This document shows, piece after piece, positions 17,507 through 19,535 of a stretch of DNA of 20,375 nucleotides (position 1 is its first letter; each line of letters begins with the position of its first letter). The notes under the pieces were generated by a model. That model saw nothing but the letters and a program-made list of their open reading frames with translations. It was not told the origin of the DNA and did no database searches. Made by a program: the position numbers and the translations under genes. Source of the DNA: a virus. The stretch covers positions 1 to 20,375 of the IMG/VR virus record IMGVR_UViG_3300020421_000185. One strand, written 5' to 3'.

Positions 17507-17885
17507 GATAAGAGTACCTACTACTCCTGAACCGCTACCCTCGATGCAAATCGAGTTCAAACCACCCACAGCGAGGTTTCCATCTTATAAACCAATGGTT
17601 ATACCTCCGAGTGATTTGGAGTCACCAGAGGGAGTAGAAGCTGAAGCATCAGAACAGCCAGAGCCACCTAAATTACAAATACCTGTATTGGATATTCAAA
17701 TGCCAATACCTGAGACAGCAGTAGTCGTTACAGCTGTTACTACAGCAGTAGTGGCAGTAGCTACTACTTCTATTACTCAATCTTTATTTGAACCAATTAA
17801 AAAGAAAGTTCAAAAACAATTACAAGCTAAAGTTGACAAATGGAAGCAATCGAAGAAAAACAAAAAGGATTCTTTGGTAAATTAA
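17487..17885 (+). CDS. Single-span membrane protein with Pro-rich N-terminus
   Basis: This protein has 132 residues from GTG 17487, or 113 from the ATG at 17544. The N-terminal half is rich in Pro and Glu (FKPPTARFPSYKPMVIPP). A hydrophobic Val/Ala/Thr-rich segment at about residues 78-100 looks like one transmembrane helix, followed by a very basic C-terminal tail (KKKVQKQLQAKVDKWKQSKK). The GTG start is preferred because the ATG lies inside a stable hairpin and because the upstream residues (RIRVPTTPEPLP) look conserved in type. Neither start has a clear Shine-Dalgarno sequence. It overlaps both neighbours. A spanin-like or lysis-accessory role is possible from its topology and position, but unproven. 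Confidence 0.7.
   Translation: MSVNLGRIRVPTTPEPLPSMQIEFKPPTARFPSYKPMVIPPSDLESPEGVEAEASEQPEPPKLQIPVLDIQMPIPETAVVVTAVTTAVVAVATTSITQSLFEPIKKKVQKQLQAKVDKWKQSKKNKKDSLVN
17540..17555 (+). promoter_or_regulatory. GNRA-tetraloop hairpin over an internal ATG
   Basis: CTCGAT (17540-17545) pairs perfectly with ATCGAG (17550-17555) around GCAA, a GNRA-type tetraloop. The in-frame ATG at 17544-17546 is inside the hairpin, so in RNA this codon would be hidden. It might favour the upstream GTG or control a short form of the protein. It also encodes a plausible peptide, so chance remains possible. Confidence 0.35.
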
Positions 17886-18130
17886 AAGATGCCGCAGAAG
17901 ATCAAGAACACCAAATACAAATCCTTGGGACATTTGTCCGTTTGGGCGTTGTGATTTGGAGTGGTTTTATTATTACATTAAACTACGTAGAAATACCTAT
18001 GATTAAGAAAAGTCCAGGTGGGGATATAACTTTTCCTGCCAGTATTTTTACTGGAGCATTAGCAACATTTGGTTTAACTACTGGTAACGGTAATAACAAA
18101 AAGAACGGTAACGATAAACAAAAGCAATGA
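17840..18130 (+). CDS. Two-span membrane protein, holin candidate
   Basis: This 96-residue protein has a charged N-terminus (FFGKLKDAAEDQEHQ) and a probable transmembrane helix at about 29-50 (RLGVVIWSGFIITLNYV). A second, shorter hydrophobic segment lies at about 64-80 (PASIFTGALATFGL), followed by a Gly/Asn/Lys-rich hydrophilic tail. Size, two spans and a charged tail are the usual holin pattern, and it lies between fibre and small-terminase genes as T7 gene 17.5 does. I recall similar proteins in cyanophages annotated only as hypothetical. It overlaps the previous gene by 46 bases and the next by four (ATGA), which suggests coupling. Lysis function is inferred. Confidence 0.75.
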   Translation: MEAIEEKQKGFFGKLKDAAEDQEHQIQILGTFVRLGVVIWSGFIITLNYVEIPMIKKSPGGDITFPASIFTGALATFGLTTGNGNNKKNGNDKQKQ

Positions 18131-18498
18131 AGAAATGGCTTTTACTCTTAGTGCTGGCATCACCCACGGTAGCGAGAGCAGAATTAGTGACCCCGAATTT
18201 CACCCAGGGGTCGATGAACAGTACAACCACAACGACCCAAGAAATCGTCGAGGAGATCACGACGACCACTTATGGGTCTGCATTAAACAAATGGAGTGGC
18301 GAAAATATCACTCATACATCAGCCTCATCAGGAGGCTTAGTAGATACAGATTCAGTATTTACCCTACATACAGCTGGAGACCCTTTCACTTTAGAAATAA
18401 CAGAAAGAGCAGCCAGTCAAGTTCTATCCGTAGAAGTAATCGACAGAGAAATCGACGTTACTGCTACTACGGTCTCCTTATCAGTCTTCTCGCAATAG
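18127..18498 (+). CDS. Exported protein with Thr-rich N-terminus, function unknown
   Basis: This 123-residue protein has a classic signal peptide: Lys-Lys at positions 2-3, a Leu-rich core, and a likely cleavage site after ARA at residue 18. The mature part starts ELVTPNFTQGSMNS, contains runs of Thr (TTTTT and TTTT), and ends in SLSVFSQ. I recognise this pattern from small proteins of unknown role next to tail genes in marine cyanophages. There is no lipobox and no cysteine in the mature part, so it is not a typical Rz1 lipoprotein. It overlaps the previous gene by four bases. Another reading frame, from ATG 18135, stays open through its entire length and becomes the next gene. Confidence 0.8.
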   Translation: MKKWLLLLVLASPTVARAELVTPNFTQGSMNSTTTTTQEIVEEITTTTYGSALNKWSGENITHTSASSGGLVDTDSVFTLHTAGDPFTLEITERAASQVLSVEVIDREIDVTATTVSLSVFSQ

Positions 18499-19130
18499 CA
18501 CCAGCTAAAGCGAGTGATCCTGAGACTAATAACGTTAGTAATCCTGTAGCTGCAGCGACTGGAAATGTAACCAATCAGGCGGTGCAATTCCAGAACAATG
18601 GAGCACCATCTAGGCAACACTACGGACCTAACATCTCGTGTAATGGAAGTACGATGACTTTCTCACCATTTTATATGGGAAATCAAACCACTCCATTTGA
18701 TGAGACAATGGCACAGCAAACCTATACGGTGGCTGAGAACTGGGGAGCACAGATTAACTTTATGATCCCACTTGATAAGCGTGGATTAGAAAGGTGTCGC
18801 AGTATAGCGGCAAGACAAGAAGAGAAGATGCGCCTTGACTACGAATTAGTCAGGGTTTTGAAATGCTCAGAACTACAACAAAAAGGCTTCATGATATTGC
18901 CTAATACACGTGTCTATGGGATGTGTAGCGATGTTATTCCTATATCATCTTGGACTAAGGCAAAGAAAGAAGTCATGAAATGTATAACACCACCTAAACC
19001 TTGGTATAAACCTTGGAGTAAACCTAAAGAACCTAAATGTACTATGTCCACTTTAAGTGAAGCGATAAAGAAACAAGCGGAAGCACAAGCTAAAGCAGCA
19101 AAGAAAACCACTAAAAAAACCACTAAATAA
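18426..19130 (+). CDS. Exported, cysteine-containing conserved protein; start codon uncertain
   Basis: A signal peptide (core YCYYGLLISLLAIA, cleavage after AKA) precedes a mature region of about 205 residues. That region has NQAVQFQNNGAP, then TFSPFYMG, NFMIPLDKRGLERC and EKMRLDYELVRVLKC, then GMCSDVIPI, a Pro/Trp/Lys segment and an Ala/Lys tail. Six cysteines in the mature part suggest disulfides outside the cytoplasm. This matches a protein of unknown function that I recall from cyanophages. The start is the problem: no ATG, GTG or TTG lies in frame near the signal peptide. I give ATC 18426, which places a basic N-region before the core. In-frame ATGs exist only at 18291 and 18135, inside the previous gene and far upstream of the signal peptide. 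Confidence 0.7.
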   Translation: MRRSNRQRNRRYCYYGLLISLLAIAPAKASDPETNNVSNPVAAATGNVTNQAVQFQNNGAPSRQHYGPNISCNGSTMTFSPFYMGNQTTPFDETMAQQTYTVAENWGAQINFMIPLDKRGLERCRSIAARQEEKMRLDYELVRVLKCSELQQKGFMILPNTRVYGMCSDVIPISSWTKAKKEVMKCITPPKPWYKPWSKPKEPKCTMSTLSEAIKKQAEAQAKAAKKTTKKTTK

Positions 19131-19292: not shown

Positions 19293-19535
19293 ATGAAGAA
19301 AGCCACTGAAGCCCAATTTAATGAATTACATAACCTCGTCACTAAAGAATTTCTAAAGAGGGTCAAAAGTGGCGAAGCTTCTACCCAAGACCTTAAGGCA
19401 GCCTGTGATTGGCTTAAAACTAATGACATCAGCGGTATTGCATATGATGGTAACCCACTCTCTAAACTTGCAGCTGTAATGCCAAAAGTAGATCCAGAAC
19501 TAGTACAGAGCAGACTCTATGGCAAACGGAGCTAA
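19293..19535 (+). CDS. Probable terminase small subunit (T7 gp18-like)
   Basis: This 80-residue protein is close to T7 gp18 in size (89 residues). It is helical: NELHNLVTKEFLKRVKSGE, then STQDLKAACDWLKTND, a PLSKLAAVMPKVDPE segment and a basic end (LYGKRS). The 'S-x-x-D-L-x-A-A-x-x-W-L-K-x-N-x-I' helix is what I associate with small terminase subunits of marine podoviruses. It would recognise concatemeric DNA and pass it to the large terminase, which should be encoded downstream. AGGAAG ends four bases before the ATG. The last 17 bases overlap the next gene. The assignment is by pattern and position. Confidence 0.65.
   Translation: MKKATEAQFNELHNLVTKEFLKRVKSGEASTQDLKAACDWLKTNDISGIAYDGNPLSKLAAVMPKVDPELVQSRLYGKRS

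Follow-up and report, generated by a model that had tools for sequence, protein, structure and literature searches.

A cyanophage exported-protein gene that very probably starts at tryptophan-derived codons within the preceding gene

The Locus and Its Two Genes

The window, by which we mean the whole 20,375-base virus record analyzed here, belongs to the late region of a T7-like cyanophage, and Cyanophage NATL1A-7 is its nearest annotated record. Two adjacent genes, called gene 1 and gene 2 below, lie near its end and overlap extensively (Table 1). The 3' end of the DUF6450 gene overlaps the start of gene 1 by 4 nt (ATGA); its membrane protein product, encoded directly 5' of gene 1, occupies the position of the T7 holin and could be a holin candidate.

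Table 1. Features of the locus, with positions in the window
Feature	Position	Strand	Basis or remark
DUF6450 protein, 96 aa, hydrophobic stretches	17840..18130	+	sequence, profile matches
Gene 1, 123-aa exported protein; holds the gene 2 start in its -1 frame	18127..18498	+	ORF, PHROG 650, alignments
Gene 2, full ORF of 331 aa from ATG 18135	18135..19130	+	364 nt overlap with gene 1; PHROG 848/1755
Most likely gene 2 start, ATG from the last A of Lys3 (AAA) and the TG of Trp4 (TGG)	18135..18137	+	comparison, GenBank start of NATL1A-7 gp165
Alternative in-frame ATG, at Trp56 of gene 1	18291..18293	+	ATG or GTG in nearly the whole clade
ATC proposed as a rare start; rejected (not conserved)	18426..18428	+	comparison of relatives
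Predicted gene 2 signal peptide, n/h/c regions (RYCYYGLLISLLAIAPAKA)	18456..18512	+	alignment
Inferred mature exported domain of gene 2, about 205 aa	18513..19127	+	alignment, model
T7 gp18-like small terminase (DNA_Packaging_2)	19293..19535	+	downstream; marks the T7-like late region

The gene 1 product carries the signal peptide MKKWLLLLVLASPTVARA and matches PHROG 650 (7e-32). Its DUF6322 score in the window (16.8 bits) falls below the Pfam gathering cut-off of 30.6, which orthologues from S-RIM4 (145.5 bits) and S-H38 (58.5 bits) pass; gene 1 thus appears to belong with DUF6322 by way of its myovirus orthologues. The C-terminus, TTSLSVFSQ, is conserved and sits above the beginning of the conserved frame of gene 2. 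A structural model (pLDDT 82, pTM 0.39) has two strands of about 23 residues plus shorter ones, and a fold search with it returned weak matches to the stems of long-hairpin pores (best E 0.037, TM 0.29). In cyanomyoviruses, a PHROG 564 gene upstream of gene 1 (L094:957-1406, L093:705-1163) weakly resembles the gene 1 family (PHROG 650, E 0.003; DUF6322, E 0.09) and may be a diverged paralogue.

Gene 2 has no Pfam family, and PHROGs lists both gene families without an assigned function. The core of its predicted signal peptide (about 18465-18494) overlaps the final codons of gene 1 and is followed by an AxA motif ending at 18512. The alanine at the -1 position of the likely cleavage site is invariant across 63 aligned relatives, which suggests that the signal is cleaved, and the mature part contains four invariant cysteines. 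The model for gene 2 has strand pairs and a long helix of 35 residues but is mediocre (pLDDT 70, pTM 0.42); a fold search with it gave no matches, and a profile search against PDB sequences yielded nothing convincing.

Matches to gene 2 occur in 439 annotated phage records, every one a cyanophage or marine virus. In five additional scans, viral contigs were searched with queries drawn from different lineages, which enlarged the set to 430 loci, so that the comparison covers about 430 loci with the gene pair from T7-like and T4-like cyanophages, of which 418 pairs were scored. A scan of genome contigs found only 16 loci with the gene, titled Prochlorococcus, Synechococcus or unrelated bacterial genomes; most likely these are phage contigs, and an origin in the hosts was dropped from consideration.

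Start Codons from Tryptophan Codons of Gene 1

The original prediction held that gene 2 lacks a normal start codon, on the premise that its signal peptide needs one close upstream. The facts behind that claim are readily confirmed: no ATG, GTG or TTG occurs in frame between 18294 and the signal peptide, an ATC is present at 18426, and no stop interrupts the frame as far back as ATG 18135; the 439 records and at least 418 scored gene pairs share the arrangement. The claim itself is wrong, as is the premise, for in these phages about 10 to 110 residues precede the signal peptide, depending on the lineage. When the canonical starts in the frame of gene 2 were all enumerated, from the last upstream stop to the end of gene 1, a canonical NTG was found in all scorable loci except L166; this locus was discarded as a start-less case, its contig being cut inside gene 1.

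The NTG is almost always derived from a tryptophan codon of gene 1, with x|TGG read one base early as xTG. Different clades use different tryptophans, at 21, 22/37, 37, 55, 64, 69 or 118-121 codons before the end of gene 1 (Table 2), and the codon in front of the tryptophan is chosen accordingly. The preceding Thr codon in the S-H38-like myoviruses is ACA in 75/75 sequences (usage 0.42), and the preceding Ser codon in the S-RIP2 group is TCA in 79/82 (usage 0.31). In the S-RIM4 group that codon is TCA in 37/37 cases when it encodes Ser and ACA in 25/25 when it encodes Thr, while the Pro codon that precedes Trp37 in the P-SSP7 group is never CCC (0/75; usage 0.21), which would yield CTG. Codon choice before the tryptophan preserves the gene 2 start codon.

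Table 2. Position of the gene 2 start and stops in the gene 2 frame, by group; stops are observed versus expected and were counted over related sequences, so that the figures overstate independence
Group	NTG, codons before gene 1 end	Stops, NTG to gene 1 end	Stops upstream of NTG
S-H38-like myoviruses	21 (74/75)	0 vs 114	455 vs 423
S-RIM4-like myoviruses	55 (71/72)	0 vs 141	203 vs 244
S-RIP2 group	mostly 64	0 vs 280	277 vs 156
P-RSP2	37	0 vs 25	92 vs 60
P-SSP7 group	37 or 22	12 vs 111	281 vs 263
Window's clade	69 and 121	0 vs 200	

Roughly every second gene of the window begins with ATGGC[AT] (at 40, 4808, 11717, 15311, 16914, 17198, 19519 and 20093), often behind A-rich sequence and without a Shine-Dalgarno element; starts derived from TGG match the ATGG context automatically.

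Of the 418 scored pairs, which span podovirus and myovirus lineages, 410 have gene 2 in the -1 frame relative to gene 1, and the near-identical contigs L001 and L002 have the same open frame as the window. In P-SCSP1d and P-SCSP2, an ordinary ATG (MTRSTLLALSLL...) opens gene 2, which occupies the +1 frame. The +1 frame is likewise used, possibly with a TTG start, by four S-H38-like loci that have lost the usual tryptophan (gene 1 reads ETS or EIE, not ETW), and this coincidence of a lost tryptophan with a changed frame argues for the tryptophan-derived start. In the last two exceptions, L265 and L322, gene 1 appears to have been called wrongly: stops interrupt its presumed peptide. In the few +1-frame lineages (L340 1400-1500, L351, L353, L359 1390-1490; L097 1435-1965, L098 1805-2335), the mature part of the exported protein is kept and the leader is re-made in another frame.

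Stop Codons Are Avoided Back to the Start of Gene 2

The -1 frame gains a stop wherever a gene 1 codon ending in T precedes one beginning with AA, AG or GA. Such stops were tallied by distance, and the expectation was obtained by synonymous resampling of gene 1. Between the NTG and the end of gene 1, no stop was observed in five of the six groups, whereas upstream of the NTG, in the groups other than the window's clade, stops are roughly as frequent as expected or more so (Table 2). The 12 stops in the P-SSP7 group match 12 loci in which the nearer NTG, at 22 codons, is the sole start. The boundary of stop avoidance shifts with the position of the start, clade by clade, a pattern that neither a start nor a frameshift close to the signal peptide predicts. 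Gene 1 codons 57-104 acquire a stop in 90% of resampled sequences versus 0/72 observed, and codons 5-56 in 68% versus 7/72; a -1 frame open over such a length is thus more than chance would give. An overlapping frame that stays stop-free beyond the amino-acid demands of gene 1, as it does in five of six groups, points to same-strand dual coding.

Dual coding with a long N-terminal extension, one of the explanations first offered for the locus, is therefore supported by stop avoidance and by the preserved tryptophan-derived ATGs. The suggested check for constraint in the overlapping frame gave a divided answer: stops are strictly avoided over the extension, but the synonymous rate of gene 1 is lowered only over its last ~19 codons, under the gene 2 signal peptide, and near its 5' end. 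The 5' stretch comprises codons 3-17 (18133-18178) in the window's clade and lies under the signal peptide of gene 1 itself; over codons 18-103 the rate is not lowered. Given this distribution, the extension is apparently tolerated as a long n-region, without conservation of its sequence, and selection for positive charge in it is weak or absent relative to resampling. Both the barely constrained amino-acid sequence of the extension and the unusual length of an n-region of about 109 residues count against dual coding in the window; so does the missing Shine-Dalgarno element at the two candidate starts discussed next.

Which ATG Is Used in the Window

Two tryptophan-derived ATGs are available in the window, at 18135 and 18291. 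The former lies 8 nt after the gene 1 ATG (18127), and both share an A-rich upstream region; a Shine-Dalgarno element is absent or weak upstream of 18127, 18135 and 18291, as it is absent from most genes of the window. One possible, though less probable, reading keeps the dual coding and places the start at 18291, for a 279-aa preprotein, with the open frame back to 18135 being incidental or ancestral. Trp56 is conserved, and almost every member of the clade has ATG or GTG there. Moreover, the seven relatives with stops in codons 5-56 all retain the ATG at Trp56 as the sole start left to them; the four of these seven that were placed on a tree cluster together in a single well-supported group, ten rows in size.

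Other observations count against a start at 18291. The frame from 18135 to 18291 is open in 61 of the 68 full-length sequences of the clade. Stops upstream of 18291 in the unselected clade number 14 versus about 74 expected, and the depletion is strong outside one subclade. In the set with open frames, which was chosen for openness, 0/356 at-risk sites are stopped upstream of 18291. Asn31 before Ser32 is AAC in 34/34 sequences, and Asn54 before Lys55 in 35/35, where AAT would make a stop and where the baseline for Asn elsewhere is 57% AAT; considering that these sequences, too, were chosen for openness, the unselected 14 versus 74 is the safer figure. Among T7-like loci, 72/82 of those with the Trp4 ATG have an uninterrupted frame as far as codon 4, as against 0/148 of those without it. 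The combination of open frame and Trp4 ATG is also found in two loci of the P-SSP7 group (L155, L170), and in L022 and L174-L176 the Trp4 ATG is the sole canonical start; L022 has CTG at Trp56, yet its frame is open to Trp4. The use of AAA for Lys3 was set aside as support for 18135, the same bias (74/75) being present in the P-SSP7 group, mostly without Trp4. On the depletion of upstream stops, the restriction of open frames to loci with the Trp4 ATG, and the loci with no other start, 18135 is most likely the start of gene 2, favored over 18291, and both may be used.

Other Explanations for the Missing Nearby Start

Three further explanations place the answer close to the signal peptide or in the sequencing itself, as the original prediction had proposed. 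Noncanonical initiation near the signal peptide, for example at ATC 18426, would provide the short basic n-region of a textbook signal peptide, and synonymous suppression does begin near codon 105. It is nevertheless very improbable: ATC occurs at this position in only 27 of 69 relatives, the others having AGA, GTC, CGA, GGA and so on, other clades have no common codon there, and such a start leaves unexplained both the avoidance of stops 45-95 codons further upstream and the preserved tryptophan-derived ATGs. A programmed -1 frameshift that fused the products of genes 1 and 2 would fit the constant -1 relation of the frames and the location of the conserved gene 1 C-terminus over the start of the gene 2 conserved frame. 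We consider it no likelier. Stop avoidance would not be predicted upstream of a shift near the signal peptide, whereas it is total back to the NTG of each clade and ends there (including the 12 P-SSP7-group loci with the nearer NTG). By eye, no conserved slippery heptamer is visible in the aligned gene 1 C-termini; the cleavage motif with its invariant Ala would fall in the middle of the fusion; and P-SCSP1/2 and the four S-H38-like loci use the +1 frame. Finally, a sequencing or assembly error that removed a start or introduced an indel is the least credible explanation; independent contigs and the family as a whole refute it: L001, L002 and the isolates NATL1A-7, NATL2A-133 and P-SSP6 share the frame relation without a nearby start.

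Gene 2 is thus very probably an ordinary exported-protein gene with a canonical start well inside gene 1, in its -1 frame, and the 3' part of gene 1 is dual-coding. On this reading, a gene 1 TGG following a codon that ends in A, G or T would, read one base early, serve as an ATG, GTG or TTG start. The length of the N-terminal extension would vary, from roughly 10 to 110 residues before the signal peptide, because lineages use different tryptophan codons. In the window, the start at 18135 would be reached from the same ribosome-landing region as that of gene 1, making nearly all of gene 1 dual-coding. The preprotein, with its n-region of about 109 residues, would be exported by the Sec route and cleaved after AKA (18512), leaving a protein of some 205 aa, periplasmic or extracellular and presumably held by disulfides.

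Existing Annotations and Known Overlaps

NATL1A-7 gp165 (ADP00132.1) and its P-SSP6 counterpart (AGF91576.1) are orthologues of gene 2, and their GenBank coding sequences start at the Trp4 ATG, 8 nt after the start of gene 1. Gene 1 is unannotated in both records, so that the overlap is not recorded; in the NATL2A-133 record gene 1 is annotated, and gp165 is shortened instead. The cyanomyovirus gp165/gp166 pair and its relatives (S-RIM8, S-RIM4, P-TIM68) comprise the same two families with the same -1 overlap, and the annotated gene 2 starts of S-RIM4 and P-TIM68 are the tryptophan-derived ATGs identified here. The overlap in that pair is 55-58 codons and uses another tryptophan codon, as compared to 121 codons in the window. 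Many cyanophage gene 2 coding sequences in GenBank are cut short downstream of the signal peptide, with the true starts inside gene 1; examples are L082:2579-3034 (P-SSP7 gp45), L096:1600-2055 (S-H38), L093:1546-2061 (DSL-LC03), L091:869-1258 (S-RIP2) and L084:2032-2439 (NATL2A-133). GenBank already contains the gene 2 orthologues, some of them with the correct start. A literature search found no paper on the gene 1/gene 2 overlap or on DUF6322, and within the papers searched we have not found described the overlap, the tryptophan-based start, its movement between lineages or the evidence for selection.

Long co-directional overlaps in prokaryotes have been regarded as annotation errors: in the 338 prokaryote genomes examined by Palleja et al., none of the real co-directional overlaps exceeded 60 bp, and the longest of them measured 56 bp (PMC2478687). 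The overlaps described here, in contrast, run from 63 to about 364 nt, occur in phages and are backed by comparative evidence. Extension of the 5' end of the downstream gene is the rarer route to overlap (PMC3887535), and the present pair resembles such cases in that a start codon farther 5' carries the downstream gene into its neighbor (PMC3887535, PMC2478687).

A second comparison is with the lambda Rz/Rz1 genes and other overlapping two-component spanins, which likewise encode two exported proteins in overlapping frames (PMC6139136). The likeness extends to a small membrane protein nearby in the late region and to annotation programs that miss one partner (PMC6139136). An inner-membrane spanin partner has an uncleaved N-terminal TM segment and a periplasmic coiled coil; gene 2 has a hydrophobic segment and, in its mediocre model (pLDDT 70, pTM 0.42), the 35-residue helix, but the invariant Ala at the cleavage position suggests that its signal is cleaved. 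Neither protein has the lipobox of an outer-membrane partner: both signal peptides are of the AxA type, the cleavage sites of the window proteins lack a Cys, and none is invariant at that point in the alignments. A further difference from Rz/Rz1 is that no small gene is embedded here; the overlap is formed by the 5' end of the downstream gene. Searches with gene 1 and gene 2 gave no match to any spanin family.

In a published spanin survey, P-SSP7 and many T4-like cyanophages appear among the spanin-less phages, and its authors point out that genes of this kind can be hidden by wrong start calls (PMC6139136). Phages so listed that have gene 2 matches are P-SSP7, P-HM1, P-SSM2, Syn1, Syn9, Syn33, S-SSM5, S-SM2 and S-SSM7. 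Considering that the lipobox that defines o-spanins is absent, we treat this link as a lead only. A doubtful but more explicit proposal is that genes 1 and 2 constitute the missing outer-membrane disruption system, in which gene 1 would form a multimeric beta-hairpin pore and gene 2 a disulfide-bonded periplasmic partner, with the shared start region setting their ratio.

Implications

Placing the start of gene 2 inside gene 1 resolves inconsistent gene calls, such as the shortened P-SSP7 gp45 and the gene 1 dropped from NATL1A-7. It also reveals a large natural series of one overlap, in which the start has moved 21 to 121 codons into the neighboring gene and nearly always onto a tryptophan codon. 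Because real co-directional overlaps of such length have been doubted (PMC2478687), the series provides a well-sampled test case for the growth of overlaps, for translation starting at two ATGs separated by 8 nt and for the length of n-region that a signal peptide tolerates. Lastly, the correct starts restore the signal peptides, which are needed for guessing the function of these two families, present in many T4-like and T7-like marine cyanophages.
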